Origin: Hymenobacter qilianensis
Lineage (GTDB): Bacteria > Bacteroidota > Bacteroidia > Cytophagales > Hymenobacteraceae
DNA: 64,000 nucleotides
Assembly: GCF_014489555.1 (NCBI RefSeq)
Contig: NZ_CP060784.1
Coordinates: 3,224,001-3,288,000, forward strand
Reading direction: 5' to 3'
Shown here: positions 11,101 through 50,757 of the stretch, in pieces
How the letters are laid out: the number at the start of each line of letters is the position of its first letter
Position numbering within the stretch: the stretch's first letter is position 1
Notes under the pieces: generated by a model
The model's input: only the letters and a program-made list of their open reading frames with translations
Database searches by the model: none
What the model was told of the DNA's origin: nothing
Translations under genes and position numbers: made by a program

Positions 11101-11549
11101 ACCGAGGGTTTGGGACGAAAGGCTGGCCTGGGCGATGGGCACGTTGGCCGCCGAGTAGCGAATAATCAGCGGGGGCCAATTCCCTGGGGCAAGCCCCGAA
11201 TGAGGGTTGCCGTAATGGCCGTGAGCTGGGCTACGCCCGCGTCAGGGTCGGTGCCGGGCTGGAAGAATACTTTGATGATGCCAACGCCTTTAATAGCGCG
11301 CGATTCGAGGTGCTCAATGTTGTTGACCGTAGTCGTGTACACGCGCTGATTCACGTTGAGCACGCGCTGGTTCATTTCTTCGGCGCTCATGCCCGAATAG
11401 CTCCACACCACGCCCACCACTGGAATGTTGACTTCGGGAAAAATATCCACCGCCATGGTGAAGATGGTCAAAATGCCCCCCGCCAGAATCACTAGGGCCA
11501 TAACGATAAAGGTATACGGACGCGAAAGCGCCAAACGAACCATCCACAT
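8199..11549 (-). CDS. RND-family efflux pump, inner-membrane permease (three frame breaks)
   Basis: A proton-driven RND permease (AcrB/MdtB-like), about 1117 residues after repair. The N-terminus MWMVRLALSRPYTFIVM is the usual first segment. It is followed by the periplasmic porter domain, a block of membrane segments with GIALSIGNLVDDATVEIENI (the conserved Asp pair of the proton relay), the second porter domain and a final membrane block. Between membrane halves is a charged cytoplasmic insert (about nt 9890-10060). The frame breaks at 11171-11175 (G5), 9323-9326 (G4) and 9030-9034 (G5). One added base at each gives a continuous protein (for example GLPQGIGPPLIIRYSAANV). It is the first gene of the operon, with the adaptor 68 bases downstream. 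Confidence 0.9.
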
Positions 11550-11999: not shown

Positions 12000-13181
12000 A
12001 TGAGAAGGAGTCTTCAACTCGATTTCTTTAGAGGTATTCTATTGATATTGATAACGGTAGATCATTTTCTATCCGGAAATGACGTAATCAAATACTTTAC
12101 ATACGAGTTTGTTGGGTGGGTAACTGCGGCTGAGGGCTTCGTGTTTTTATCAGGATTAACGGCAGGTATAGTCTATACCCGTAAAATGAATGATAAGGGC
12201 GAAGCTTTTGTCAATGAAGCAGTAAAGAAAAGAGCCTGGTTAATCTACAAGAATCATACAGGTATATTGCTTTGTGCTCTAGTTGCTCTACTGTTTGGCT
12301 ATGGTTTGAATGAATACTGGATAAATGATTACGGCTTGTTATCTCAAAAGCCCTTTATTGCTATTGCCCTAAGTGCGCTATTATTATATCAGCCTGCTCA
12401 GATGGATATATTGCCTATGTATATGATTTTTATACTGTTTGTGCCAATGGTGATTAAATATCTTAAAAGAGGATATAAGTGGCAATTAGTGACATGTTCA
12501 ATTGCGATTTACCTGCTTCCTGTCATTAAAGGGTTAACTTCTTTAGATACTATAACACAAATCGGAGATGTAAATACCGGCTTCTTTAATCTTTTGTCAT
12601 GGCAACTCCTTTTCTTTTTAGGCGTGTTTGCTGGATTTGCTTATTGTTCTGGTAAGGCAAAGCAGCTCATGCAAAGCAAAGTCACACTTGTGCTGTCATT
12701 AGCCATTTGTTTGACGCTTTTTGCAATAAAACGTAGTCATATTGATTTAAGTGGATTTGAAAATTTGTTTTTGAGAGATGTATTGGGACCAGTAAGGCTT
12801 CTTAATTGTTTAGCACTTATTTCAATTATAATATTAGTTTGCTCCAAAAAAAGCGAATGGTTTACGTTTAAACCTATTTGTTATTTAGGGCAATATTCAC
12901 TGGAAGTGTTTTCATTTCATGTAGTTTTCATAGTTGTCTTTAAGCCTTTAAATGAAGTGTTAAGCAATATTTACTTTTATCAAATATCTAATCATTTATT
13001 TATCTACCCATTATCTTCGATAATGCTTCTTTTTATCGCGTTGCCTGCCTTGTACTTAGCTCCTATTCTTTTAAGTAAAAAGGCTTATAGATTTAATAGA
13101 AGTGATATAAAGCCTGCACCCAGCGAAGATTGGTTGACAAGTGCTAGTGTTTTAACACAGGACTATAAACAGATGGTCTAG
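12000..13181 (+). CDS. OpgC-like integral membrane acyltransferase
   Basis: A 393-residue multi-pass membrane protein resembling OpgC, which succinylates periplasmic glucans in proteobacteria. It opens LQLDFFRGILLILITVDHFL and continues VGWVTAAEGFVFLSGLTAG, matching the family's DxxRG..L...H start and the AEGFVFLSG segment. About ten hydrophobic segments follow. The acceptor in this organism is unknown. Base composition is markedly AT-rich, with many ATA, TTA and AGA codons, unlike every neighbour, which points to recent transfer. No mobile-element gene flanks it. The start at 12000 directly precedes the conserved LDFFRG motif, so little N-terminal extension is possible. Confidence 0.8.
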   Translation: MRRSLQLDFFRGILLILITVDHFLSGNDVIKYFTYEFVGWVTAAEGFVFLSGLTAGIVYTRKMNDKGEAFVNEAVKKRAWLIYKNHTGILLCALVALLFGYGLNEYWINDYGLLSQKPFIAIALSALLLYQPAQMDILPMYMIFILFVPMVIKYLKRGYKWQLVTCSIAIYLLPVIKGLTSLDTITQIGDVNTGFFNLLSWQLLFFLGVFAGFAYCSGKAKQLMQSKVTLVLSLAICLTLFAIKRSHIDLSGFENLFLRDVLGPVRLLNCLALISIIILVCSKKSEWFTFKPICYLGQYSLEVFSFHVVFIVVFKPLNEVLSNIYFYQISNHLFIYPLSSIMLLFIALPALYLAPILLSKKAYRFNRSDIKPAPSEDWLTSASVLTQDYKQMV

Positions 13182-13254
13182 AGAGGTCATATTTCAAAGT
13201 CATTTGCTTTGTGTAGAAAATTGAAAAAACAGGCGGCGTAGATGCTTTGAATGA

Positions 13255-14949
13255 CTAAGCCGACGTCTCGCCGGCGGTGCTGGCGATGTGGCGGGTGCTG
13301 CCCGGCACCATTACGCGGAGTGGCTGGGCCGGCTCGGGGTGCTGAGCCAGCAAACGGGCTACATAGGGCATGTCGGGGCCGATATGCAGCTCCCGGGCAC
13401 GATTCTTTATTTCGGCCTCTTCCCGGCTTACACCCCGGTCGTGAAGCTGCTCATACTCTTCCCACGACTCCACCATAAAGTATTCTACCATGCGGGTGGG
13501 GTCGGCCAGATCGGCGTAGAGACCAACGCGGATAGCCCCTTCACGGCGGCGGATACGGCTTAGCTCCTCCATGAGAGCCGCGAAAGCGGCGCGGTCGGAG
13601 GGGGCAACGCGGTAGGTGGTCGTGATGATGATGGGGCCGGCATCCGGGGCCGGCTCATCTTCGGCCAGCACGGGCGTTGGGCGCTGGCGCGCGGGAGTGA
13701 AGTCGAGGCTTTCCGGAGCATTGATAAGTGAATACCGGAACACCAGCAGCGTGCTCAGTCCCAGCCAGATAGCCGCCCCGGATAATGCAACAGGCAGACC
13801 CCACTGCGAAGCCACCGTTCCCCATACCACGCTGCCCAGAGCCATACCGCCCTGAATAGTAAGCAAGTACAGGCTGATGGTGCGGGCCTGAACCCAGCGC
13901 GGCACCACGGTTTGTACGCCCACGCTGAAGGAATTAAGCACCAGCATCCAAGCCAGTCCTACCAGCACCAGCAAGCCATAAAGCAGCCAGTAGTTATCAG
14001 CAAAAGCCAGCCCCAGCAAGCCCATCGCAAAGGCAATAGTAGCAAGCGTCACGCGGTGGTCGATGGTGAGGCCACGGTTGAGACGAGGCAGCACAACCGC
14101 CCCAATAACGGCTCCCAGGCCCATGCACGAAAGCAGCGTGGAGTAGAAAGAAGTAGGCAGCTGAAGCCGTTGGGAAACTACGGCCGGCATGAGCGCCAGC
14201 AGGGCGCTGGCCCCGAAAGTAAAGCTGACGCCCCGCACCAGAATACGCTGCACCGGCGGCGCAAACCGGGCGTAGCGGATACCACCCCGAATAGCAGCTA
14301 CTACCCGCTCCGTGGCCAGCGTGGAGGTGGCTTGGGGCTCGCGCTTCCAGCGCCACACCATATAGATAGTAGCCAGAAAGGATAGTCCGTTAATCAAAAA
14401 AGCCCCCCCGGCTGAGTAATAGCCAATTACAATGCCCCCTAAAGCCGGCCCAAACGCCCGCGCCAGATTGAAGCTCACGCTATTCAGGGCAATGGCCTGG
14501 GGCAGCTCGGAGCGGGGCACCAGCTCGGGCGTTACGGTCTGCCACACCGGATTATTCAGCGCGCCGCCCAGGCCCAGCATAAACGTAAGCAGCAACAGCA
14601 GCCAGGGCGTGGTCAGGCCCATGAGCGTGAGCAGGGCCAGAAGCAGTCCTACCGATGCCATCCAGGTTTGAGTGAAAAGCAGCATCCGCCGCCGATCCAC
14701 GAGATCGGCCAGAGCGCCGGCCGGCAGGCTGAGCAGGAATACGGGCAGGGCCGAAGCCGTTTGGAGTAAGGCAACCAGCACGGGCGAAGGCGTCAGGTCC
14801 GTCATCAGGCCCACGGCGCCCACGTTCTGCATCCAGGTACCGATGTTGGACACAAACGACGCTATCCAGAGCATCCGAAAAAACGGAATCCGCAGGGGCG
14901 CGAAGGGAGACGTAGGCGTAGGCTGGGTGAGCGTAGTGGAAGCAGGCAT
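13255..14949 (-). CDS. MFS exporter of the MFS_3 family with C-terminal monooxygenase-like domain
   Basis: A 564-residue major-facilitator protein. Residues about 20-420 carry 10-12 membrane segments of the 'transmembrane secretion effector' group (MFS_3, related to the enterobactin exporter EntS), with ALADLVDRRRMLLFTQ as the loop 2-3 motif. The last 130 residues are soluble and resemble an antibiotic-biosynthesis-monooxygenase/dimeric alpha-beta-barrel fold (IIITTTYRVAPSDRAAFAA, then GLYADLADPTRMVEYFMVE). This domain pairing is known for the family, but its role is unclear. The frame is intact across a C7 run at 14403-14409. The substrate is unknown. Confidence 0.85.
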   Translation of the reverse strand: MPASTTLTQPTPTSPFAPLRIPFFRMLWIASFVSNIGTWMQNVGAVGLMTDLTPSPVLVALLQTASALPVFLLSLPAGALADLVDRRRMLLFTQTWMASVGLLLALLTLMGLTTPWLLLLLTFMLGLGGALNNPVWQTVTPELVPRSELPQAIALNSVSFNLARAFGPALGGIVIGYYSAGGAFLINGLSFLATIYMVWRWKREPQATSTLATERVVAAIRGGIRYARFAPPVQRILVRGVSFTFGASALLALMPAVVSQRLQLPTSFYSTLLSCMGLGAVIGAVVLPRLNRGLTIDHRVTLATIAFAMGLLGLAFADNYWLLYGLLVLVGLAWMLVLNSFSVGVQTVVPRWVQARTISLYLLTIQGGMALGSVVWGTVASQWGLPVALSGAAIWLGLSTLLVFRYSLINAPESLDFTPARQRPTPVLAEDEPAPDAGPIIITTTYRVAPSDRAAFAALMEELSRIRRREGAIRVGLYADLADPTRMVEYFMVESWEEYEQLHDRGVSREEAEIKNRARELHIGPDMPYVARLLAQHPEPAQPLRVMVPGSTRHIASTAGETSA

Positions 14950-15245
14950 GGGGGCAAATCTGAAGCTAAGCCGGGCGCAGGCGAACCTGTCAGCTTACGT
15001 ACGGCTGCCGAAAACTGCCGGTCTCATTTGCCCGCCAAAAAAGCCCCCCACGGCCAAAGCGCCGCAACTGCAAGAGCCCCAGACTTTTCCTGCACACGGC
15101 GGCGCTCCTCCCCGCCGCGCGCTGTTAACGCAAGGTTTCTGAGTTAACCGTAAGGCAACTTATTCTACATGTTTTCATAGTCCTGGCTTAATCTCCCGGT
15201 AACCTCACGCTTCTAGTTTTGCGGCCACATCGATCAGGCAAAACT
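14950..15245. other. Intergenic region upstream of first SusC gene
   Basis: A 296-base gap between divergently transcribed genes. It contains two G-run motifs (about 14952 and 15037-15049). I see no clear operator or promoter, though it must hold the promoters for both the MFS gene and the SusC gene. Confidence 0.5.
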
Positions 15246-18200
15246 ATGAAACACAATTACTTGGCTTCGCTGCTCAGGCTGTGCGCGGTCTTCGCGCTTC
15301 TCCTCTGGCACAGCGCCGCCCTAGCTCAGGGCCAACCCGTTACCGGCACCGTAACCGACGACAAGGGCGAAGGCCTGCCAGGCGCTACCGTCGTCGTGAA
15401 AGGCACCACCACCGGCACCTCCACCGACGTGGGGGCAAATTTGCTATTACGGTGGCCTCAGATGCTACGCTACAAGTTACTTACATCGGCTTTCTGGCCC
15501 AGGAAGTGCGCGTGGATGGCAAGTCGGAACTCAACGTGCGTCTGGCCCCCGACAGCCGGCAGCTGAACGAGGTAGTGGTAACGGCCCTCAATATCAAGCG
15601 CGAGCAGAAATCTCTGGGCTATGCAACCCAGACCATCAACGGCGATGCGCTGCTGGAAGCGCGGCCCAACAACTTCGCCCAGGCCTTATCGGGTAAAGTG
15701 GCGGGCCTGAATCTGATTTCGCCCGGTTCGGGGCCGGTCAACTCCACGCGTATTTCGCTGCGCGGTGATAACTCGCTGAACCCCAATGGCAACAATGCGC
15801 TCATCGTGCTTGATGGCGTGCCCCTGAACAGCGGCCTGACCAGCTCCGGCGTGGGCAGCGCCTACGGAGCCGGCTCCGGCAACGACGTGCCCGTGGACTT
15901 CGGCAACGGCATTGCCGACATCAACCCTGATGATATTGCCAGCATCACAGTGCTGAAAGGGGCCAGCGCCACGGCCCTCTACGGCAGCCGTGCCGCCAAC
16001 GGTGCCCTCATTATCACCACCAAAACCGGCGCCCGCAAACCTAAAGGTCTCGGCGTGACGGTGAATACCAACTACAGCGTGAACACCGTGCTCCGGTGGC
16101 CCGACTTCCAGTACGAGTACGGTCAGGGCACGGGCGCTCCTTCAATGCGGCCGGCGAGCCATATTATTCCTACGGCGCTTCCCCCGACGGGGCCAGCACG
16201 GGCGGCACCAGCAGCGCCTTCGGCCCCGCTTCGAGGGGCAGGAGTATTTTCAGTACGACCCGGTGACGCAGGCCCAGTCGGCGGAGCGGCTGCTGTGGCG
16301 GCCTTATGAGGACAACGTGACGGGCTTTTTTCGCACGGGTTCCACGCTCACCAACAGCGTGGCCCTGGAAGGCGGCACCGAAACGACCTCGGCGCGGGCC
16401 TCCGTTACCCACTCCAAAAACGAGTGGATTATGCCCAACACCGGCTTCGAGCGCCTGACCGCCGCCCTGAGTTTGAACCACGCCGTGTCAGCTAAACTGA
16501 AGCTGGGGGCAAAGTGAACTTCACCAATCGCACCAGCGACAACCTGCCCGCCACTGGCTACAACAACCAGTCGATATCGTACTTCATGATTTTCCAGAAC
16601 CCGAATGTGCCGCTCGACGCCTACCGCACCATCTGGAAAAACGGGCAGGAGCAGCTCGATCAGGTTCACCCGTTCAGCTCCTTCATCGACAATCCATATT
16701 TGATTGCCCAGGAGATGACCAACTCGGTGAACAACCGCACCACGGTCGGCAACCTGTCGGCCACCTACGAGTTTTCGCCCAAGTTCGACCTGCTGGTGCG
16801 CTCCGGCATTGCCATGACCCAGGAGGAGCGCGAGCAGCGCCGCCCTTACAGCACCGCCAACTTCCAGCGCGGCTACTATAAGCAGCAGGATATCAGCCAA
16901 TACGAGGTAAACACCGACGCTCTGTTTACTTACTACGAGCCCCTGGGCGAGCACTTTGACGTGCGCGCCTCGGTGGGCGCCAACCGCATGGACCGCCGCT
17001 TCCGGGGCATCGACGGCGTGGTGCGCGACCTCGTGATTCCGGGCGTGTACAAGCTCACCAACGGCGTGAGCAGCCCGATTTTGTCGGCTACCACCACTGC
17101 CCGGCGCATCAATAGCGTGTACGCCCTGACCTCGTTTTCCTTCGACGACAAGATTTTTCTGGACCTGACCGGCCGCAACGACTGGTCGAGCACGCTGCCC
17201 AGCCAGAACAACTCTTTTTTCTACCCGTCAGTCAGCACCAGCTTTATTCTGAATGAGCTGCTGCCCATGCCCACGTCGATTTCGCTGGCTAAGCTGCGCC
17301 TGTCCGCCGCCCAGGTCGGCAACGATACGGAGCCCTACCGCACCCGCAAGTACTACGGCCGCAGCGACTTTCCCGGCGCGGGTTCTCTGCCCGCCACGCT
17401 CTACAACACGAACTTCAAGCCCGAAATCACGACCAGCTTCGAGGCGGGCGTGGAATACTTGATGTTTCAGGGCCGCATCGGTGCCGACGTGACAGTATAC
17501 CAGAACACGACCCGCAACCAGATTCTGGAAGTGCCTCTCGACCCGACCACTGGCTACAGCCGGGCCGTGCTCAACGCCGGGGAGGTGCGCAACCGCGGCG
17601 TGGAAGTGGTGCTCAACGCGCGCCCCATCGACAACAGCGCCTTTAAGTGGCGCAACACCGTTACCTGGGCCCGCAACCGCAATAAGGTGCTGAGCTTAGC
17701 CGATGGCCTGGAAGATCAGCAGGTAATCGGGGCGGGTGGCACGGCCACGCTGCTGGCCACCGTGGGCGGCACCACCGGCGACATCTACGGCTTCGGCTTT
17801 GCGCGCAGCCCCGATGGGCAGATCATCTACAACAAGGACGGCCTGCCCGTGCAGCCGGCCGCTATCCAGTACATCGGGAGGGCCTTCGCCGACTGGAAGG
17901 GGGGCTTTCTGAACGAGTTCAGCTACAAGAATTTCCGGTTCAGCGTGCTGGTCGATGGGCAGTATGGAGGCCGCATCTACTCCCAGACCCACCACAAAAT
18001 GATGGAGCAGGGCAAGCTCAAATCTACGCTGCCGGGCCGGGAAGAAGGCTTTATCATCGGCGACGGCGTAGTGCTGAACGCCGATGGCACCTACTCGCCC
18101 AATGAAACCAAGGTGATTCCGGCGGCCTACTACGCCGAGTACTACCGCCGCGCCAACATCGAGAGCAACTCCTTCGACGCGTCGTTTCTGAAGCTGCGCG

Positions 18201-18426
18201 AGATGCGGCTGGAGTTCAATTTGCCCCCGCGCTGCTGGCTCGCACCAAGGCTCTGACCGGGGCCACCATCGGCCTCTACGGCCGCGATCTGGCCATGTGG
18301 ACCAAGTTCCCCATGTTTGACCCCGAGACGGCAGCCCTCAACGGCGGCACCATTCTGCCCGGCGTGGAAATTGGCCAGCTGCCCAGCACCCGCACCATGG
18401 GCGTGAACCTCACCTTACAGTTCTAG
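15246..18426 (+). CDS. SusC/RagA TonB-dependent outer-membrane transporter (five frame breaks)
   Basis: A TonB-dependent beta-barrel importer of about 1061 residues after repair. It has a signal peptide (MKHNYLASLLRLCAVFALLL, cleavage after ALAQ), a carboxypeptidase-regulatory-like domain (VTGTVTDDKGEGLPGATVVV), a plug domain (NEVVVTALNIKREQ, ALSGKVAGLNLIS, VLKGASATALYGSRAANG) and a barrel ending TMGVNLTLQF. Five single-base losses break it, at 15431-15435, 16132-16134, 16224-16227, 16505-16509 and 18224-18228. Adding one base at each gives one uninterrupted protein. It pairs with the SusD gene downstream. The linked phosphoesterase genes suggest phosphate-ester cargo rather than a plain glycan. 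Confidence 0.9.
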
Positions 18427-18473
18427 CGCTGGAAAATGCCCCCCAGACGGTCATGCCGCCGCTTTATTAGAAC

Positions 18474-18601
18474 GTCATGCAGAGCATGTGGCGCATCAAA
18501 CCAGGGACGAAGCATCTCGCTCGCGCCGGTAGAGTAGTAATCCGGCGTCAGCACGCGAGATGCTTCGTCCCTGGCTTGATGCGCCACATGCTCTGCATGA
18601 C
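18474..18601. repeat. Intergenic palindrome, family A, copy 2 (long form)
   Basis: Arms GTCATGCAGAGC and GCTCTGCATGAC enclose GAAGCATCTCGC and GCGAGATGCTTC. Between outer and inner arms each side has a 23-base insert (ATGTGGCGCATC... on the left, ...GATGCGCCACAT on the right). The two inserts are nearly perfect complements of each other, though unrelated to the other copies. The loop contains TAGTAATC. It sits between SusC and SusD of one operon, so it is probably transcribed as a long hairpin. Confidence 0.9.
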
Positions 18602-18653
18602 CGCCTGGAATACTTTCCATCATCATCCTTTCGGATCAGACATTCCTTCTCCT

Positions 18654-20099
18654 ATGAAAAAATATATAGCTCTAGTAATCTTCGCTTTAGGTGGCAGCCT
18701 CGTTTCGTGTACCAAGGATTTTGATGAACTGAACCTCGACCCCAACCGCATCGAGCGCATCAGCCCTGGCACCCTGCTGAACCCCATTATTTACGAGCTA
18801 GCTGCCTTCAATACTGAGCGGGCCGACGCGTTTACCTTCGATATTATGCAGGTGGCGCTGCCGTTTCCGAGTGTGTCGGGGGGCGTGCACCGCTACGTGG
18901 TAAGCGAAAGCGCCGGCAACTCCACCTGGACGACGTACTACCGCCTGCTGGCTAATATCCGGGAGATGCGCCTTGCCGCCCAAGCCGCCCAGGACCCCAA
19001 CTACGAGGCCATTGCCCTGACCCTGAACGCCTGGACCTACGCCAACCTCACCGACTGCTTCGGCGACGTGCCCATGACCCAGGCCAGCCAGGCCGAGGAA
19101 GGCGTGCTTTACCCCAAGTTCGACACTCAGCCCGAGATCTACGCCCAACTGCTCGCCGATCTGGAAACGGCCAATGGGATGTTCGACAAAAGCCGCACCA
19201 TGCCCTACGGCAGCGACATTCTCTTCAACAACAACGTGGACGCCTGGCGGCGCTTCTGCAACTCATTGCGGATGCGCCTGCTGCTGCGCATCTCCAAGCG
19301 CACCGAAACCAACGCAACCACTCAGCTGGCGGCCATGATCAACGACCCCGCTACGTACCCCGTGTTTACTCAAAACAGTGAAGCGGCCATTCTGCGCATT
19401 ACCGGCGTCACGCCCACGGTGTCGCCCTGGGGCCGGGCCGTCGATTTTACCACGTTCCGGGCTGCGGGGGGCTTTTTTATTGATAACCTGAATACTCTGG
19501 CCGACCCGCGTTTGGCTAAATTTAACAGTCAGGCCCGGTCGAGCGACGGGCGCACTACCATTGGTTACCGTGGCATTCCGAGCGCCTACGCCGGCAGCGA
19601 CGCCCAGTTTCAGTACCAGCCTTCCAACTTCAATGTATCGTTGGTAACGGCCACAGTGGCGGCGCCCATGCCGCTGGTAATCTTGACCTACGCGGAGGTG
19701 GAGTTCATCAAGGCCGAAGCTGCGCAGCGCGGCTACACCACCGCCGATGCCCGCCTGCACTACGAGCGCGGCGTGAAGGCGGCGGTGGAGCAGTGGGGGG
19801 CAATTTTGCCGGCTACCTATTTCCAGAACCCCGCCGCAGCCTACAACGGCACGCTGGCGCGCATCATGCTGCAAAAGTATTACGCGCTGTTTTTCAACGA
19901 TTACCAGCAGTGGTTCGAATACCGCCGCACGGGCCTGCCGGTGTTGCCTCGCGGCCAGGATTTGCAGAATGGCGGCGTGATGCCCGTGCGCTTTCGCTAC
20001 CCGCTCATCGTGCAAACCAATAACGGCGACAACTACCGCGCCGCCGTGCAGGCCCAGGGCCCCGACGACGTGAACACTAAAGTGTGGTGGGAGAAGTAG
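18654..20099 (+). CDS. SusD/RagB-like outer-membrane binding lipoprotein
   Basis: A surface lipoprotein that lids the SusC barrel and delivers substrate, 481 residues. The start at 18654 gives MKKYIALVIFALGGSLVSC, a lipoprotein signal with Cys19 in the lipobox. The mature protein begins TKDFDELNLDPN, typical of the second SusD-like Pfam group. Helical TPR-like segments follow, for example YRLLANIREMRLAAQAA and ALTLNAWTYANLTDCFGDVPM. An upstream in-frame start at 18477 would run through the family A palindrome and hide the signal peptide, so it is rejected. The frame is intact across G6 runs at about 19466 and 19794. It lies 227 bases after SusC. Confidence 0.92.
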   Translation: MKKYIALVIFALGGSLVSCTKDFDELNLDPNRIERISPGTLLNPIIYELAAFNTERADAFTFDIMQVALPFPSVSGGVHRYVVSESAGNSTWTTYYRLLANIREMRLAAQAAQDPNYEAIALTLNAWTYANLTDCFGDVPMTQASQAEEGVLYPKFDTQPEIYAQLLADLETANGMFDKSRTMPYGSDILFNNNVDAWRRFCNSLRMRLLLRISKRTETNATTQLAAMINDPATYPVFTQNSEAAILRITGVTPTVSPWGRAVDFTTFRAAGGFFIDNLNTLADPRLAKFNSQARSSDGRTTIGYRGIPSAYAGSDAQFQYQPSNFNVSLVTATVAAPMPLVILTYAEVEFIKAEAAQRGYTTADARLHYERGVKAAVEQWGAILPATYFQNPAAAYNGTLARIMLQKYYALFFNDYQQWFEYRRTGLPVLPRGQDLQNGGVMPVRFRYPLIVQTNNGDNYRAAVQAQGPDDVNTKVWWEK

Positions 20100-20128
20100 G
20101 TCGATGTGACGCCTGCTACCACTAGTCC

Positions 20129-20221
20129 GTCATGCAGAGCGGTAGCGAAGCATCTCGCGTGTTTAGTAGAATTAGTAATCAGACGACCGAGAGCGAGATG
20201 CTTCGCTCTGCTCTGCATGAC
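20129..20221. repeat. Intergenic palindrome, family A, copy 3
   Basis: Outer arms GTCATGCAGAGC and GCTCTGCATGAC and inner arms GAAGCATCTCGC and GCGAGATGCTTC surround a loop with TTAGTAATC. The variable stem segment is GGTAGC on the left and GCTCT on the right, so pairing is imperfect here. It sits between the SusD gene and the phosphoesterase gene. Confidence 0.88.
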
Positions 20222-20326
20222 GTTCTTTTTAGGTTATGCAGACTGCCATAAATGCCCTAAAAAGCCCCCTAAAGGCCATTCTGAGGACGCCGATTTACCC
20301 TTCTCTAAGAATCAAACCATTACCGC

Positions 20327-21829
20327 ATGTCACAACAACGCCGCACGTTTCTCAAAGCAATCGGCCTGGCCGGGCTGGGCACTACCCTGGACTGGACCCA
20401 GGCTGTAGCCCGCCCGAAGGCGCCTGTCCGCGCCGGCAAGGAAGTAAGCGCAGCTACACTCAGCGGCCGGGTGCACGCGGGCGGGCAGGGCCTGGCGGGC
20501 GTGGCCGTCACGGACGGCACCACCGTCACGCTCACCGATGCCAGGGGGCAGTACGAGCTGGAAAGCAGCGGCGCCACCGAGTTCGTGTACATCTCGGTGC
20601 CGCGCGGCTACGAGTTTCCGCAGGAGCAGGGCGTGGCCCGCTTCTACCGCCGCAAAGAGCCCGTGCGCGGCCGCTTCAAGGCCGATTTCGAGCTGCGCAA
20701 GCTCAGCCGAGACGATACCCAGCACAACTTCGTGGTATGGGCCGATCCGCAGATGATTTCCAAGGCCGATGCCGCCGAGTTCAAGGCTACCGCCGTCCCT
20801 GATACTCAAAAGCTCATTGCCAGCTACCCGGCCGGCACCCTCTTCCACGGCATCGGCTGCGGCGACCTGGTCTGGGACCATTTCGAGTTGTTTGAGGACT
20901 ACCAGCAGGGCGTGGCTGCCACGGGCATCCCTTTTTTCCAGGTTATCGGCAACCACGACATGGACCTCACGGCCCGCACCGACGAAGGCTCGGCAGATAC
21001 TTTTCGCAAGCTGTTCGGGCCCACGTACTACTCGTTTAATCGAGGCGAAATTCACTACGTAGTGCTCGACGACGTGTTTTTCATCGGCGCGGCCAAAAAG
21101 TACATCGGCTACCTCACTGAGCAGCAGCTGGCCTGGCTGGAGCAGGATTTGAGCTACGTGAAGCCCGGCTCAACCGTGGTGGTGAGCCTGCACATTCCGC
21201 CCACTACCCGCCAGCATTTGCGCAACAAGGAAAAGGAGGAGTCGATGGGCGGCTCGGTGGCCAACCGCCGCGAGCTATACCGGTTGCTCAAGCCTTTCAA
21301 AACCCATATTATGTCGGGCCACACCCACTTCAACGAAACCCTCGTGACCGAGCAGAACGTGGTGGAGCACGTGCACGGCACCATCTGCGGGGCCTGGTGG
21401 ACGGGCCCCATCTGCACCGACGGCACGCCCGCCGGCTACGGCGTGTACGAGGCGCGCGGCGGCGAGCTGAAGTGGTACTACAAAGCCATCGGGCAGGAGC
21501 GTACCCACCAGTTTCGCATGTACCCAAAAGGCAGCCTACCCGAGCGCCCCGAGGCCGTAGTGGTGAACGTCTGGAACTGGGACCCGGCCTGGAAAGTGGT
21601 GTGGTTTGAAGACGGGGTGCGCCGCGGCGACATGGAGCAATACACCGGCCTCGATCCGTTGTCGGTGCAGCTGCACGCGGGCCCGGCGCTGCCTGCCAAG
21701 CACAAATGGGTTGACCCCACGCTGACCGAGCATTTGTTTGTGGCCAACGTAACGGGCGCGGCGCGGGAAATGCGGGTGGAAGTCACCGACCGGTTTGGGC
21801 AAGTATACTCGGATACGCTGTCGGCCTAA
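20327..21829 (+). CDS. Exported calcineurin-like metallophosphoesterase (Tat signal)
   Basis: A metal-dependent phosphoesterase of 500 residues. The N-terminus QQRRTFLKAIGLAG is a twin-arginine signal, implying folded export with metal bound. An N-terminal beta domain (about 45-130, GRVHAGGQGLAGVAV) precedes the metallophosphoesterase core. Core motifs are WADPQM (first metal Asp, with Gln where many relatives have His), GCGDLVWD, IGNHD, SLHIPP and SGHTHF. A C-terminal calcineurin-like accessory domain completes it. This three-domain layout is common in Bacteroidota. Its place just after a SusC/SusD pair and before a glycerophosphodiesterase suggests it cleaves phosphomonoesters or diesters captured by that pair; the exact substrate is inferred, not shown. 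Confidence 0.88.
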   Translation: MSQQRRTFLKAIGLAGLGTTLDWTQAVARPKAPVRAGKEVSAATLSGRVHAGGQGLAGVAVTDGTTVTLTDARGQYELESSGATEFVYISVPRGYEFPQEQGVARFYRRKEPVRGRFKADFELRKLSRDDTQHNFVVWADPQMISKADAAEFKATAVPDTQKLIASYPAGTLFHGIGCGDLVWDHFELFEDYQQGVAATGIPFFQVIGNHDMDLTARTDEGSADTFRKLFGPTYYSFNRGEIHYVVLDDVFFIGAAKKYIGYLTEQQLAWLEQDLSYVKPGSTVVVSLHIPPTTRQHLRNKEKEESMGGSVANRRELYRLLKPFKTHIMSGHTHFNETLVTEQNVVEHVHGTICGAWWTGPICTDGTPAGYGVYEARGGELKWYYKAIGQERTHQFRMYPKGSLPERPEAVVVNVWNWDPAWKVVWFEDGVRRGDMEQYTGLDPLSVQLHAGPALPAKHKWVDPTLTEHLFVANVTGAAREMRVEVTDRFGQVYSDTLSA

Positions 21830-21956
21830 AGCTACTGAGCCCTCCGCCTGCTGGTGCCCAAGCGCTGCCGGGGGGCTTTTTTGCGCCCTTCATCACACCG
21901 GAAAACGCAGCCGGTAGGGTGGGGGGCTTTTTTTGAATTCGCGTATGTTTACCCCG

Positions 21957-22838
21957 ATGCTACGAACTATCCTTTCCTTGCTGATTGCCGCTTTCACGAC
22001 GCTCGGCGCTTCGGCCCAGCGCCCGCCAATCGATTGGCAGGGCCACCGCGGCTGCCGCGGGCTGATGCCCGAAAATACCATTCCGGCCATGCGCAAGGCC
22101 CTTGATCTGGGCGTGACGACCCTGGAAATGGACGTGGTCATCAGCCAAGACCGGCAGGTGCTGCTTTCCCACGACCCTTACCTGAACGCCGATTTTGTGC
22201 GCACGCCGCAGGGTCAGCCCCTCAGTAAAGCCCAAGAGAAAAGCCTGCGCCTGTACGCCATGCCCTACGCCGACATCCGACGCTATGACGTGGGCAGCCA
22301 GGGCAACGCCAAGTTTCCGCGCCAGCAGAAGCTGCGCACCTACAAGCCCCTGCTGGCCGAAGTCATCGACTCGGCTGAGGCGTATGCGAAACGCAAAGGG
22401 CGGCCCGCGCCGCGCTACAACATCGAAACGAAAATGGCCCCCACCGGCGACGGCACCCTTCATCCGGCTCCCGCCGAGTTTGTGCAGCTCCTGCTGGCCG
22501 TCATCAACGCCAAAGGCATTCAGGACCGGGTTACGATTCAGTCCTTCGACCCGCGGGCTCTGGAGGAATTGCACCGGCTGCGCCCCGCGCTGCCGACGGC
22601 TTTGCTGGTAGATAACACCTCGGGCCTTGCGGCCAACTTGCAGCGCCTGAGCTTCCGGCCCACGCTGTATAGCCCCCATTACCGGCTGGTAACCAGCAAC
22701 CTGGTGAAGGCCTGCCAGCAGCAAGGAATAAAGATTGTTCCCTGGACCGTGAATACGGCCGCCGAGATTGAGCGGCTGCTCCAGCTCGGCGTAGACGGCA
22801 TCATCACGGATTACCCCGATTTACGAACTGGCCAGTAA
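21957..22838 (+). CDS. Exported glycerophosphodiester phosphodiesterase
   Basis: Hydrolyses glycerophosphodiesters to glycerol-3-phosphate and an alcohol. The 293-residue protein has a signal peptide (MLRTILSLLIAAFTTLGASA) and the GDPD motifs WQGHRGCRG (His30), PENT (Glu39-Asn40), LEMDVV (Glu57, Asp59) and LLSHDP (His72). The C-terminus VDGIITDYPD is the usual barrel end. An ATG at 21945 would add four residues. A G6-C-T7 motif sits about 25 bases upstream of the start. With the phosphoesterase and SusC/SusD upstream it completes a plausible set for taking up and breaking down phospholipid head groups or teichoic-acid-like phosphodiesters. Confidence 0.88.
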   Translation: MLRTILSLLIAAFTTLGASAQRPPIDWQGHRGCRGLMPENTIPAMRKALDLGVTTLEMDVVISQDRQVLLSHDPYLNADFVRTPQGQPLSKAQEKSLRLYAMPYADIRRYDVGSQGNAKFPRQQKLRTYKPLLAEVIDSAEAYAKRKGRPAPRYNIETKMAPTGDGTLHPAPAEFVQLLLAVINAKGIQDRVTIQSFDPRALEELHRLRPALPTALLVDNTSGLAANLQRLSFRPTLYSPHYRLVTSNLVKACQQQGIKIVPWTVNTAAEIERLLQLGVDGIITDYPDLRTGQ

Positions 22839-22888
22839 GGAGGGTATGCTTAAGGACAGCACATTTGGCCAATCATCTTTTGCCGGAC

Positions 22889-23218
22889 TCAGGCAGTGGC
22901 CGTCCAGCGGTTTGCTTCGTCGCTACGCTTGTTTGAAGGCTTGAGCACTTCAAAAACGGTATCCAGCCGGAGAAGATGCAGGACGCGGAATAGGGTAGGG
23001 CTCACGTTATAGAGCTGCACTTTGCCTCCACCTTGGTGCAATAGAAGCAATTGGGAAGCAAGGTGCGCCACGCCGTGTGTACGCAGGCAAGCAAGGTGCT
23101 CACAGTTGACGTGCAAGCGGGGCTCGCGCATGGTGGCAACGCGTACGAGGGTGCGGCCAAAATGCGCCGGATTGCTCGGATCAATGGTCAGCTTGACTGC
23201 GCGAGGAATCCAAGTCAT
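22889..23218 (-). CDS. STAS-domain protein, anti-sigma-factor-antagonist-like
   Basis: A small 109-residue protein from the ATG at 23218 (MTWIPRAVKLTI). The segment REPRLHVNCEHLACLRTHGV and the following LYNVSPTLFRVLHLLRLDTVFEV match the strand-helix pattern of STAS domains, including the switch-helix region. The usual phosphorylatable Ser/Thr of SpoIIAA-like proteins is not evident at the expected site, so it may be a scaffold or a degenerate member. A longer in-frame start at 23317 adds a hydrophobic stretch that does not fit. It is close to other signalling genes but not clearly in an operon. Confidence 0.6.
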   Translation of the reverse strand: MTWIPRAVKLTIDPSNPAHFGRTLVRVATMREPRLHVNCEHLACLRTHGVAHLASQLLLLHQGGGKVQLYNVSPTLFRVLHLLRLDTVFEVLKPSNKRSDEANRWTATA

Positions 23219-23441
23219 GTGCCGAGAAGAGTGCGCTTGCATGAGTGGCTGGAATAAGGGGAGAGAATGAATAATTACTAGGTGCAGAGTTAGATACGGT
23301 AATAGGGCATGAAACAAATCTAAGCAGAACCGCTCCTGTTTATTACCGTAAAATCACGCATTTTCAACCCCCGTATTTCTAACTGCTCACTACGTAAGTG
23401 TGTACAGAGCGCCGCTCAATCTATTAACCAAATGCCGTTCC

Positions 23442-23846
23442 TCACTGCTTCAGCGTGATAGTGTGCGGCATGGAATGCCCCAGGCTAAACCGCCAGATGT
23501 GACTGTTAGAACTCAGACGGGCCAGGGTAAAATCGCCCTCCAGGCGGTGGCCATGCAGGTGCAGGAGCAAGTGCCCCGCTTCGATGTGGTGGCGCAAGGC
23601 TTCAGTTGGGTTTTCTTCCGACGCCTGGGTTATCGTACACTCGCCTGTATCTACCTCAACTTCGGGTAGGGATGCCGAATCGGATGCTTCACATAAATAG
23701 TAATAAGGAACCTCGATAAGTAAGCGCTGAGCGGGGCCCGGCAGCACCCAATGCATCAGCTGGCGCGTAGGCGAACACAGCGCCATGTGCTGAAAAACAG
23801 CACCTTCTGCTGCTTGTCGCAAAACAAACCGGAGTGGGAAGGACAT
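23442..23846 (-). CDS. Small protein resembling the LigD 3'-phosphoesterase domain
   Basis: A 134-residue protein. The C-terminal part HHIEAGHLLLHLHGHRLEGDFTLARL resembles the end of the LigD phosphoesterase (PE) domain, in which a strand reading LxGxxLxGxFxLxR closes the barrel. The N-terminal part (PLRFVLRQAA, then QLMHWVLPGP) resembles its first strands and the WAVPKGP motif. The His and Asp/Glu ligands of the PE active site are not clearly preserved. No ligase or Ku gene is near. A degenerate or specialised stand-alone PE domain is my best reading; an unrelated fold is possible. Confidence 0.45.
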   Translation of the reverse strand: MSFPLRFVLRQAAEGAVFQHMALCSPTRQLMHWVLPGPAQRLLIEVPYYYLCEASDSASLPEVEVDTGECTITQASEENPTEALRHHIEAGHLLLHLHGHRLEGDFTLARLSSNSHIWRFSLGHSMPHTITLKQ

Positions 23847-24284
23847 AACCTGGGTAGTATTCTGTGCAAATGGGGCCGTATAGAAGTAAGAATTAAGCTA
23901 AATCCAGACGAGCTGTAAGTGGCCACTAAACCGAATTTAGCGTGCTCATGCAGTGGAGCAGTGAGGACTGCCCCACCGATGAGGAGCGACGGAGAGCAGA
24001 GGTAGCCCAAACGGCTACTTCAGTGGCGTTGCCCGGCAAAGTCAGAGGATTATACTCCCCGGCCGCAGTTCTTCACATTCCGAGCAGCCCACTCGCTTTC
24101 TTTAACGCCATTCAGGCCCACAAATACACTTGCATCATACGGAAAAACCATGGCGCGAACACGTAATTAGGCAAACGTATTTTTCGGACCTGCTCGTAGT
24201 TTATACGGATTGCTTAACACCCAAAAAGCCCCCTAGATAATCCTCTGGGGGCTTTTTTGGCTGAATTATGCAGTAGCCGTCCGG
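23847..24284. other. Intergenic stretch ending in a terminator
   Basis: A 438-base gap between two minus-strand genes. The only structure seen is the terminator at 24223-24258. The rest shows no convincing coding potential, repeat or operator. Confidence 0.5.
24223..24258. terminator. Bidirectional hairpin terminator
   Basis: AAAAAGCCCCCTAGA and TCTGGGGGCTTTTTT arms flank a short loop, with T runs on both strands. It lies just past the stop of the CheB-like gene (minus strand). The stem is built from the same G-run/A-T motif that recurs through the window. Confidence 0.85.
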
Positions 24285-25301
24285 CTAGCTTTGCTCTTCC
24301 TCCGGAGCCGTCACGGCAGTGCTGCTTTTCACGCCGTTGAGCAAAAACTCACGCAGGCGGTTGATATGACCCTTTATTTCCTCAATACGCTCTTCCTGCT
24401 GCACCGAATACAAGCCTTCGCCCCGGCTGGCCATGCTTGTAAGCAGGTTTTTGCGCTCCTCCATCATGCGCAGCGCTACCCACAGGGTTTCCTCAAGGCT
24501 GTGCTGGCTGCTTTTGAGCAGTGCATCGGCGGTGAAAGCGTGGCCCGTGTGGCAGCGGTAGCGCAGGAGCTTACCATGCTTTAGCTCAAATAAGGCCCCA
24601 CCACAGTCGGGGCAGGTCATTGTGCTGGGAGTACCCAAGCGCAGTACTTCATCCATAGTTCCCACAACTCTTTCCGCAATAGCGGCCTCCAGTTTAATAT
24701 CATCTGGCACATTGCTATTGCCCGAGGACGGTATTTGTACCAATCTTGTCAGCAAGTCGCCCATGCGTGATATGGGCAGTACATAGTCGATGGGAACGTT
24801 GCTGAGCGCACTTTCAGGCATGCTCGGAAACTCCGCCTCGTTGGGGTCCTGCACCACGGCCAAGCCGCCAGCGCGCTTAATCAGCTCTAAGCCAGCGGTG
24901 CCGTCGTGGAGCATGCCCGTGAGCACCACTCCAATTACGGCCGTACCGTAGTACGCCGCGGCCGAGCGAAACAGGGCGTCGGCGGCGGGGCGGTAGTGGT
25001 TTTCGCGGGGGCCTTTGGTCACGAGCAGATGGCCGTCTTTCACCAGCAGATGGCGGTCGGGTGGAGCTAGGTACACAGTGCCGGGCTCAATGGGGTCGCC
25101 ATCATTGGGTAGGCGACAACTAAGGCCTGTGTGACGCGACAGGCGCTCTACCAGATGCCAGCCCAGCGAATCGGGGGCAAAATGCTGCACAATCAGCACG
25201 GCAGCCGGCAAAGAGTCAGGCAGTTGCTCAACCAGGCGGCACAGAGCTGGCATTCCGCCGGCTGAGGCGCCAATCACGATAAGATGAGAGGGACTTTTCA
25301 C
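24285..25301 (-). CDS. CheB-type methylesterase without receiver domain, with C-terminal zinc-ribbon-like region
   Basis: A protein-glutamate methylesterase of 338 residues. The catalytic triad is visible as Ser13 (VIGASAGG), His40 (IVQHFAPDS) and Asp133 (MLHDGTAG). No response-receiver domain is present, so it is not controlled by direct phosphorylation of its own receiver. After the esterase domain a CPDCGGALFEL...YRCHTGHAF stretch (about residues 228-258) forms a CxxC...C..H ribbon, then a helical tail. It is transcribed divergently from the CheB/CheR/PAS hybrid, and no classical chemotaxis cluster (CheA, CheW, MCP) is present. A sensory rather than flagellar role is likely. Confidence 0.88.
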   Translation of the reverse strand: MKSPSHLIVIGASAGGMPALCRLVEQLPDSLPAAVLIVQHFAPDSLGWHLVERLSRHTGLSCRLPNDGDPIEPGTVYLAPPDRHLLVKDGHLLVTKGPRENHYRPAADALFRSAAAYYGTAVIGVVLTGMLHDGTAGLELIKRAGGLAVVQDPNEAEFPSMPESALSNVPIDYVLPISRMGDLLTRLVQIPSSGNSNVPDDIKLEAAIAERVVGTMDEVLRLGTPSTMTCPDCGGALFELKHGKLLRYRCHTGHAFTADALLKSSQHSLEETLWVALRMMEERKNLLTSMASRGEGLYSVQQEERIEEIKGHINRLREFLLNGVKSSTAVTAPEEEQS

Positions 25302-44513: not shown

Positions 44514-44551
44514 GAGTCTATTCAAAGACATAAAAAGCCCCCCACAAGAAC

Positions 44552-44643
44552 GTCATGCAGAGCGGCGCGAAGCATCTCGCGTGCTGACGAGAGGTTAGTA
44601 ATCTTACTAAACACGCGAGATGTTTCGCGCCGCTCTGCATGAC
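44552..44643. repeat. Intergenic palindrome, family A, copy 4
   Basis: Outer arms GTCATGCAGAGC and GCTCTGCATGAC; inner arms GAAGCATCTCGC and GCGAGATGTTTC (one mismatch); variable stem GGCGC on the left and GCGCC on the right, perfectly complementary. The loop holds TTAGTAATC. It lies between the sugar porter and SusC genes, inside the fructan locus. Confidence 0.9.
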
Positions 44644-44774
44644 CATCTGATTGGATTGTGGCAATGACCGCCTGATTTAAAAGCGTCTTTCCGAAAACGA
44701 TTACAGCTCCTTAGCAGACTTTTTTGCCCCCCAGAGCTGACCAACCTATACTCCCTCCACTTTACACAACACCC

Positions 44775-50610: not shown

Positions 50611-50626
50611 ATTCACTTACATGAAC

Positions 50627-50719
50627 GTCATGCAGAGCAAAGCGAAGCATCTCGCTCGCTTCGTTGCAATGCTAATCCTGACGATTGCACGCGAGATGCT
50701 TCGCTTTGCTCTGCATGAC
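50627..50719. repeat. Intergenic palindrome, family A, copy 5
   Basis: Outer arms GTCATGCAGAGC and GCTCTGCATGAC (the match extends two bases further each side); inner arms GAAGCATCTCGC and GCGAGATGCTTC; variable stem AAAGC on the left and GCTTT on the right, fully complementary. The loop holds GCTAATCC. It lies between fructokinase and GH32 genes. Confidence 0.92.
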
Positions 50720-50757
50720 GTTCTTTTTTATACAGTAAGCTTTAATCGCCTCTCCCT

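Follow-up and report, generated by a model that had tools for sequence, protein, structure and literature searches.

A probable phosphate-scavenging SusCD system for glycerophosphodiesters in Hymenobacter qilianensis

A gene cluster of Hymenobacter qilianensis, in which a SusCD pair stands beside two phosphoesterase genes, bears on the passage of organic phosphorus across the outer membrane of Bacteroidota. The cluster lies in a 64,000-nucleotide stretch of contig NZ_CP060784.1 (positions 3,224,001 to 3,288,000), hereafter the window. Judged from its sequence and that of its relatives, it is probably a phosphate-scavenging system for glycerophosphodiesters. Its features are as follows.

15178..15221, + strand, PHO-box-like promoter site, TAGT/TAAT/TAAC, 31.8 bits
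15246..18426, + strand, susC-like gene for a TonB-dependent importer, split into six frame pieces here and intact in relatives
18474..18601, no strand, palindromic repeat element with 47-nt arms, between susC and susD
18654..20099, + strand, SusD-like surface lipoprotein of the PF12771 class (profile match; Cys19 conserved)
20327..21829, + strand, Tat-exported metallophosphoesterase (MPE), PF16371-PF00149-PF16370 (profile matches, Tat-like start)
21945..22838, + strand, exported glycerophosphodiester phosphodiesterase, GDPD (PF03009 profile; a TTG also at 21933 in the open frame)

Cluster layout and protein families

The original prediction had described four genes running in one direction. 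They are indeed co-directional, and their coordinates and families agree with Pfam and TIGR profiles, but susC is not a single open frame. With the intact susC of locus L005 as a reference, six pieces in changing frames span 15192-18423, the barrel piece being 95% identical to its L005 counterpart. The pieces match the SusC/RagA family profiles TIGR04056 and TIGR04057; the TIGR04057 signature is reached at 59.6 bits (cut-off 46.2), while for TIGR04056 the scores of the largest two pieces, 226 and 243, stay below the cut-off of 368, the gene being split in the assembly. That only susC is broken, whereas susD, MPE and GDPD are intact, could mean that susC has decayed and that the remainder is a non-functional remnant in this strain. 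We consider this very unlikely, since the genes downstream of susC and the promoter are conserved, and since rpoB of the same genome is likewise split into two frames while the susC genes of relatives are intact. SusD-like_2 genes elsewhere in the genome and an RND-type gene in the window (family assigned by eye) are also in consecutive pieces, so that the errors seem genome-wide and the breaks likely reflect sequence error in an assembly that is 94% complete, rather than decay of susC.

The palindromic repeat is not thought to be part of the cluster function. A scan for sigma-70 promoters over 15100-23000 returned 0 sites against a mean of 2.4 in shuffles, and terminator-like sites were about as frequent as expected by chance (10 vs 8.3, sd 2.8).

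The SusD protein matches PF12771 (SusD-like_2) over the full profile with 444 bits (cut-off 27), while its PF14322 score of 26.9 bits falls just under the cut-off of 27. Cys19 is nearly invariant among relatives, of which 45 of 56 match a lipobox-like expression, and the AlphaFold2 model (mean pLDDT 84.4) is mostly helical. Profile score, lipobox cysteine and helical model together place the protein in the SusD-like_2 family. The GDPD belongs to PF03009 with 132.6 bits (cut-off 23.6).

The phosphoesterase was expected to carry a twin-arginine signal, and its N-terminus, MSQQRRTFLK, is Tat-like; RRx[FY][LIV] is kept near the N-terminus in 55 of 60 homologues and TatC is found in the same genome. 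Its three domains and intact ligand positions make it a MetallophosN-Metallophos-MetallophosC protein (PF16371, PF00149 and PF16370): the eight residues that a known motif marks as the likely metal ligands (D140, Q142, D180, N209, H210, H289, H332 and H334) are invariant in 41/41 sequences. A phmmer search of the PDB gave zero matches. The predicted structure (mean pLDDT 88.7) finds the class III metallophosphodiesterases Rv0805 and GpdQ, the latter a glycerophosphodiesterase, as its best PDB matches, with E 1e-11 to 2e-9 and TM-scores of 0.59-0.76 by target length. The MPE differs from both by extra N- and C-terminal domains, with a TM-score of just 0.37-0.38 by query length and 16-17% identity. 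The ligand pattern is like that of GpdQ and Rv0805, but with D-x-Q where GpdQ has D-x-H.

Linkage of SusD genes and phosphoesterases

In 55 of 60 related loci a SusD gene is located at most 9 kb from the phosphoesterase, and because these loci were retrieved with the phosphoesterase alone as query, the linkage is not due to chance. The MetallophosC family as such has no fixed tie to SusCD: among 15 other genomes of the phylum sample, own profiles found SusC and SusD in 3, SusC in 1 and neither in 11. The reverse survey started from SusD in 296 genomes (a sample of 40 of roughly 100 listed places), and in 7 of the 12 closest a MetallophosC, GDPD or PLC-type gene is among the next three genes. 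Our own queries detected no such gene in 38 control SusD loci (Fisher p=8e-6), these being listed PF14322 rows, about every fourth, hand-picked from 11 of 20 genomes searched, with a Pfam tally of the 25 commonest families in which single phosphoesterases outside those queries could be missed. Two more of the closest SusD loci, L100 and L101, both have a phosphoesterase and were left out of the count because they were first seen through a PF16370 search; including them gives 9/14. In the other 5 of the 12 no phosphoesterase is found among the next three genes, and two of these have a glycosidase-type neighbour, a fucosidase family gene downstream (L158) and a GH113 gene upstream (L150).

Loci lacking a same-strand neighbour were scored as misses in both groups (7/28 middle loci, 6/38 controls), and PF01663 was not counted where sulfatase scores alike (L165, L170). 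Among 83 control proteins 7 match PF01663 and 10 match sulfatase, and weak control matches to the L166 PF01663 protein occur in L218 (1e-7) and L215 (2.6e-4). Without any PF01663 the middle group stands at 7/28 vs 0/38 (p=0.0015); with weak PF01663 matches counted on both sides it stands at 10/28 vs at most 7/38 (p=0.16), and the contrast for the closest group weakens to 7/12 vs at most 7/38 (p=0.02). The SusC of one control locus, L223, matched the MPE profile at 3e-4 and was ignored.

In L151 and L152 the SusD is 58-60% identical to that of the window and the MPE only 26-27%. Such variation of the phosphoesterase while the SusD clade stays the same suggests repeated pairing.

Glycerol-phosphate genes and the proposed substrate

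GDPD-family genes are present in 35 of the 60 related loci, 28 of one family and 7 of another. In enterobacteria, Glp/Ugp-type catabolism of glycerophosphodiesters proceeds through GlpQ, GlpT and GlpK, and in a few relatives GDPD, GlpT, GlpK and MIP channel genes are likewise found beside the SusCD clade of the window, with glpT and/or glpK in four of its SusCD clusters. GlpT is above the cut-off in L149, L063 and L056, the only GlpT relatives in 120 loci searched. GlpK is above it in L157, L149 and L059, the last an MPE locus without SusCD, and the same 120 loci hold further GlpK relatives only in L063 and, cut, in L056. The linkage is thus rare. The window's system differs from the Glp/Ugp type in having a TonB-dependent SusCD pair for passage through the outer membrane and in that GlpT is not recognised in its own genome, where glycerol-kinase-family matches stay under the cut-off (the assembly being incomplete and with errors).

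We infer the substrate, the direction of import, the periplasmic site of cleavage and PhoB binding from sequence. Surface SusD and TonB-driven SusC would capture phosphodiesters, namely deacylated phospholipid head groups or fragments of glycerol-phosphate polymers, and bring them into the periplasm, where the Tat-exported MPE and the GDPD would cleave them, the GDPD freeing glycerol-3-phosphate. In some relatives glycerol-3-phosphate may enter the cell via GlpT and glycerol may be phosphorylated by GlpK; in the strain of the window, since its genome shows no GlpT, dephosphorylation of glycerol-3-phosphate probably yields glycerol and Pi. Lipid or cell-wall debris would probably serve the cell as its phosphate source. 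Phosphodiester capture had been suggested from gene content, and three independent computational lines now support it, namely the glpT/glpK linkage, the GpdQ/Rv0805-like enzyme and the PHO-box-like promoter.

A rival possibility is the utilisation of teichoic or lipoteichoic acid, in which SusCD would import polyglycerol-phosphate fragments, glycosidases would strip alpha-GlcNAc or alpha-galactose, and a PLD-like enzyme, the MPE and the GDPD would depolymerise the chain to glycerol-3-phosphate. GlpQ-type GDPDs are teichoicases in Gram-positives, and the Rufibacter versions of the locus carry a NAGLU alpha-N-acetylglucosaminidase (L052, L053, L057), a GH36 family gene (L052-L054) and a PLD-like gene (L051-L054, L057), the last also found in L041 of Arcticibacter. 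However, no NAGLU or GH36 relative lies in the flanks of the loci that share the window's architecture (0/12), the window proteins scanned include none either, and both alpha-GlcNAc and alpha-Gal are components of many other glycans, so that we regard this alternative as unlikely.

Most described SusCD pairs serve glycans, and the pair could belong to an ordinary glycan or peptide system whose phosphoesterases act on phosphate decorations or have an unrelated periplasmic role. Glycosidases do lie near some relatives, and a table in PMC10434189 lists Bacteroides thetaiotaomicron BT0446-49 with a similarly annotated enzyme and two family 10 glycosylhydrolases. In the window itself, as had been predicted, no glycosidase was found by a profile scan of the eight proteins in and around the cluster (12000-25301), and the cluster is not a polysaccharide utilisation locus in the sense of SusCD with CAZymes. 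Together with the glpT/glpK linkage in relatives, the PHO-box-like site and the repeated pairing suggested by L151 and L152, this makes an ordinary glycan or peptide system quite improbable, even slightly more so than teichoic-acid utilisation. The same table, an iron stimulon, also lists BT4724-25 (TonB receptor, SusD) and BT4727 (GDPD), the calcineurin-like phosphoesterase being in BT0446-49 (PMC10434189). Iron uptake was not adopted as the function, the listing giving no substrate test.

The promoter site and known phosphate-starvation systems

A search for PHO-box-like sites had been proposed, and one such site was found upstream of susC. Three TA-rich half-sites, TAGT, TAAT and TAAC, are spaced by 11 bp and lie 10 bp upstream of TAGTTTTG, an element of the TAnnTTTG form that resembles the -7 consensus of Bacteroidota; the site lies 24 bp before the susC ATG. 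A PHO regulon is defined by tandem PhoB-type repeats with 11-bp spacing upstream of a core promoter, and this arrangement is found at susC. The site scores at least 21.8 bits in 12/12 loci of the window's architecture, and at least 16 bits in 23/51 loci overall vs 2/300 other genes used as control; the 28/51 loci under 16 bits include those of Rufibacter in which there is a second GDPD. For 460-base pieces drawn at random from the same loci, possibly with cluster sites inside, the 99th percentile of the best score is 4.6 and the highest value 33.3.

In 100 genomes of the family the pattern occurs 194 times vs 30 for its reversed form. There it also precedes phoX-like genes, a PhoB-class regulator gene, nucleases and a porin, the PhoX-like and porin names being taken from plasmid annotation (PDB sequence searches with these two proteins gave no matches). 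Many of the sampled sites stand before genes that have no known role in phosphate supply, and in the window's own genome the one further strict site precedes a SulP-type gene (family by eye). The matrix was trained on 41 sites, leaving out two sampled stretches before SusC genes of the window's family (L277, L292). As these sites were found with a cluster-derived pattern, independent evidence comes only from the third half-site, from the count for the reversed pattern and from what the other genes are. Given the site at the susC promoter, we propose that a PhoB-type regulator probably turns the genes on when phosphate is scarce.

A phosphodiester version of SusCD had been hinted to be novel, a hint weakened by the Pi-starvation-induced SusCD pairs with phosphodiesterases (PusCD) already published for Flavobacterium (Lidbury et al. 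2020, PMC8115612). As described there, PUS I of Flavobacterium johnsoniae resembles the window cluster in having SusCD beside two predicted periplasmic phosphodiesterases, one of them pf00149, and no CAZymes, in its ECF sigma gene (also present in 15/60 relatives of the window's locus) and in the proposed capture of phosphodiesters under Pi starvation. It differs in its pf16670 enzyme, in place of the window's GDPD and MetallophosN/C protein, and in its SusD class, PusD1 and PusD2 being pf07980/pf14322 while the window SusD is PF12771; moreover, PUS induction was measured in Flavobacterium, whereas the window cluster is known from sequence, with a PHO-box-like site only. The main text of PMC8115612 contains none of the terms "teichoic", "PHO box" and "pf12771". 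The distinction concerns PusD1 and PusD2 only, and one of PusD3-6 could be of the window's SusD kind. PusD is called polyphyletic in the same paper, hence PUS in general is not bound to the pf07980/pf14322 class. With its SusCD co-located with phosphomono- or diesterases, as in PUS, the window cluster looks like a variant of this known kind.

A broader reading is that PF12771-class SusD marks an organophosphate SusCD branch across Bacteroidota, controlled by a PHO box not described before (TAAY repeats with 11-bp spacing, at 10 bp from TAnnTTTG), in which the window's branch would be specific for glycerophosphodiesters and the Rufibacter form would import and dismantle glycosylated teichoic acid. 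We hold this to be doubtful, as the part on a broad branch is no longer significant (p=0.16 in the middle-group comparison) with weak PF01663 matches on both sides.

Plant-associated Bacteroidota strains are said to be without the usual high-affinity PstSABC uptake (PMC8115612). For the window's clade, the glp linkage points to a concrete class of substrate and the promoter site to a concrete class of regulator, and both are thereby testable. A usable PHO-box pattern would make the phosphate regulon readable from sequence across Hymenobacteraceae and their relatives.

Gene arrangement and state of the sequence

As originally predicted, the four cluster genes are co-directional, all lying on the forward strand in the order susC, susD, metallophosphoesterase (MPE) and glycerophosphodiester phosphodiesterase (GDPD), and the family of each was checked with Pfam/NCBIfam.

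Features of the cluster and its flanks (window coordinates)
12000-13181, forward strand, OpgC-like acyltransferase gene, upstream flank
13255-14949, reverse strand, MFS gene, upstream flank
15246-18426, forward strand, susC, TonB-dependent importer gene
18654-20099, forward strand, susD
20327-21829, forward strand, metallophosphoesterase gene
21945 (ATG) to 22838 (end of stop), forward strand, GDPD gene
Downstream flank, reverse strand, open frames

The best relative in a single scan is Hymenobacter sp. BT188 (L005), with identities of 93% for the phosphoesterase, 95% for the susC barrel piece, 94% for SusD and 92% for GDPD. Measured against this locus, susC of the window falls into six frame pieces. 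Since in the same assembly (5.03 Mb in five contigs) rpoB is split over two frames (contig C1, 2207309-2211156) and three adjacent pieces make up a PF12771 gene of contig C4, we attribute the susC breaks, with moderate confidence, to sequence error rather than to decay. An RND-type efflux transporter gene (8199-11549, reverse strand, family by inspection) likewise shows four consecutive open-frame pieces, which is consistent with frequent sequence errors. Further SusC-like stretches are present at 44907-45967 (in two frames) and 62051-63181. A repeated palindromic element with arms like GTCATGCAGAGC...GAAGCATCTCGC is found at 18474-18601, 20131-20221 (by inspection only), 44547-44648 and 50623-50723, the gaps ahead of susD and of the phosphoesterase gene being among these places.

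Linkage of SusD with phosphoesterases

One scan with the phosphoesterase protein retrieved 60 loci from Hymenobacter, Pontibacter, Rufibacter, Spirosoma, Mucilaginibacter, Chitinophaga and other genera, with a SusC relative in 56 and a SusD relative in 55; two of the five SusD-less loci (L026, L055) end at a contig edge. Genes that recur alongside are those for DUF5689 lipoproteins (33 loci), GDPD (28), FecR (25), ECF sigma factors (15) and a second GDPD family (7). Three main architectures are observed, namely SusC-SusD-MPE(-GDPD) in the window and 12 loci (L005-L015, L045), ECF-FecR-SusC-SusD-DUF5689-MPE(-GDPD), and SusC-SusD-GDPD-MPE-ABC in Rufibacter, with exceptions such as Mucilaginibacter L039 and L040, where MPE precedes SusC. 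The DUF5689 lipoproteins sit after SusD in 33 loci (e.g. L022:7558-8847). In the reverse survey from the enzyme family, PF16370 was present in 16 of 118 genomes; among the 15 other than the window's, SusC and SusD accompany it at three loci (L100, L101, L103) and SusC alone at L112, while profile search detected neither at the remaining 11. The MPE family thus often stands alone, without SusCD.

A search with SusD only across 296 genomes of the phylum gave 75 matching genomes at 1e-40, and the next three same-strand genes were scored at 40 SusD places. In the closest group (12 loci with a SusD-HMM score above 500 bits), a MetallophosC, GDPD or PLC-type gene follows in seven; the remainder carry DUF5689 (L158, L160, L161) or genes without a Pfam name (L150, L156), with a GH113 gene upstream of SusC in L150 and a fucosidase family gene downstream in L158. 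In the middle group (the next 28), eight loci carry a phosphoesterase from a different family: PhoD-like (L159), Exo_endo_phos (L163, L164 by likeness to L163, and L178, also with a phospholipase-C-type gene), PF01663 (L166) or Metallophos_2 (L172, L187, and L174 by likeness to L172). The others show none or other genes, e.g. GH2/GH92 (L185), a peptidase (L167) or an FMN oxidoreductase (L175). As a control, 38 PF14322-type SusD loci out of 11 of the same surveyed genomes were used; sulfatase is their commonest neighbour family (10 of 83 proteins), and queries for MPE, GDPD, PLC, PhoD, Exo_endo_phos and Metallophos_2 matched nothing in these loci except one SusC at 3e-4. Compared with 0/38, Fisher tests give p=8e-6 for the closest group (7/12) and p=5e-4 for the middle group (8/28), or p=0.0015 when PF01663 is left out (7/28); when weak PF01663 matches are counted on both sides, the values are p=0.02 and p=0.16 respectively. 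Hence, we regard the association as firm in the window's clade and as tentative in the wider branch. More distant SusD-like_2 relatives precede metallophosphoesterases (L172, L174), aminotransferases (L177, and L184 by likeness) or an ABC transporter with weak 2-aminoethylphosphonate-permease similarity (L171).

Eight MPE positions which, from the known motif, we take to be metal ligands (D140, Q142, D180, N209, H210, H289, H332, H334) are invariant in 41/41 aligned sequences. A PDB sequence search with MPE found nothing; for its predicted structure, modelled with a mean pLDDT of 88.7, the best matches are Rv0805 (rank 1, E 1.1e-11) and GpdQ (rank 3, E 6.3e-10), followed by purple acid phosphatases and 5'-nucleotidases. 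The model favours a predicted phosphodiesterase activity, short of proof.

A putative PHO-box-like promoter site

Aligned susC upstream regions of the window and seven Hymenobacter loci share the block TAxx-N7-TAAY-N7-TAAY-N10-TAnnTTTG. The strict two-half-site pattern is found at 15189-15221 of the window, and 8/12 loci of its architecture have it upstream of susC, with a looser form in two further loci (L009, L012). Elsewhere in the scanned loci (2.4 Mb) the strict pattern occurs twice, in L159 and where the sigma-gene region of the L048 cluster starts, and shuffled versions of 60 loci contain none. A weight matrix built from 41 sites outside the cluster reveals a third half-site 11 bp upstream, absent from the original pattern. 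Characteristic of PhoB/OmpR-class sites are tandem 11-bp repeats immediately ahead of the core promoter, and for this reason the susC site may be termed PHO-box-like. A look for such sites had been suggested originally; the candidate upstream of susC scores 31.8 bits and is kept in all 12 same-architecture loci at 21.8 bits or more. Scores of at least 16 bits are found in 23/51 loci (leading SusC, FecR or ECF genes counted), including eight ECF genes and Spirosoma, Filimonas and Mucilaginibacter loci, compared with 2/300 other genes (26.2 and 18.1 bits). Keyword searches of an open-access library listed papers on Burkholderia lipids and on lipid remodelling, but none on a Bacteroidota PHO box.

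The window's own genome holds two strict matches, the cluster site and one before a SulP-type gene (family by inspection). In 100 family genomes, 194 matches were counted versus 30 for the reversed pattern, with at least one in 80 genomes. In 40 stretches, hand-picked among the matches listed, the genes after the pattern include three phoX-like genes, of which L285 takes its name from an annotated plasmid gene of 60% identity and the other two theirs by likeness. An OmpR/PhoB-class response regulator, two NucA-like nucleases (L269 tested), a porin and a metallophosphoesterase (E 5e-11 to the MPE profile) also follow the pattern, as do three SusC, two of them from the window's SusC family, and eight choice-of-anchor I proteins (L264 tested). 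By inspection, SulP-type genes (three), MarC-like genes (four) and TonB-receptor-like genes (five) were recognised as well; the remaining stretches show single genes or no open frame. The DUF5689 profile additionally finds two nucleases downstream of the site, those of L269 and L278.

Known systems, glp genes and the likely product

A phosphodiester version of SusC/SusD had originally been regarded as potentially notable. In Lidbury et al. 2020 (PMC8115612), Flavobacterium PusCD are described as SusCD pairs induced by Pi depletion and located beside phosphodiesterases or PhoA, polyphyletic with six forms, for which the suggested substrates are lipid head groups and nucleic acids; the kind itself is therefore not new. 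One of PusD3-6 may be of the same kind as the window's SusD. None of the matches listed by literature keyword searches showed the PF12771-MetallophosN/C-GDPD composition, the glp linkage or the promoter site.

Rufibacter clusters additionally carry PLD-like enzyme, NAGLU and GH36 genes. Polyglycerol-phosphate teichoic acid can bear alpha-GlcNAc or alpha-galactose, and as a lead only, this set together with GDPD would fit such a substrate.

Several related loci contain glp genes. L149 reads GlpD-like, GlpK, MIP channel, GDPD, SusC, SusD, MPE, GDPD, GlpT, GDSL esterase; in L063, GDPD and a GDSL gene flank GlpT, with converging MIP, GlpK-like and GlpD-like genes; in L056, SusC is preceded by a MIP-like gene and GlpT; in L157, GlpK and a MIP channel come after SusC-SusD-DUF5689-GDPD; and in L059, MPE without SusCD is placed after GlpD-like, GlpK and MIP. 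GlpT (L149, L063, L056), GlpK (L157, L149, L059) and MIP (L149, L063, L059, L157) exceed curated cut-offs, and the GlpD-like proteins stay below theirs (290-293 bits vs 360); for GlpK of L063 and MIP of L056 the names rest on likeness. Since GlpT/GlpK relatives are confined to these five among 120 loci searched, the linkage is rare, yet limited to this SusCD clade and enzyme, and it points to glycerol-3-phosphate as a product. As the window's own genome gives no GlpT match and no GlpK above cut-off, the more likely gain in this strain would be Pi.
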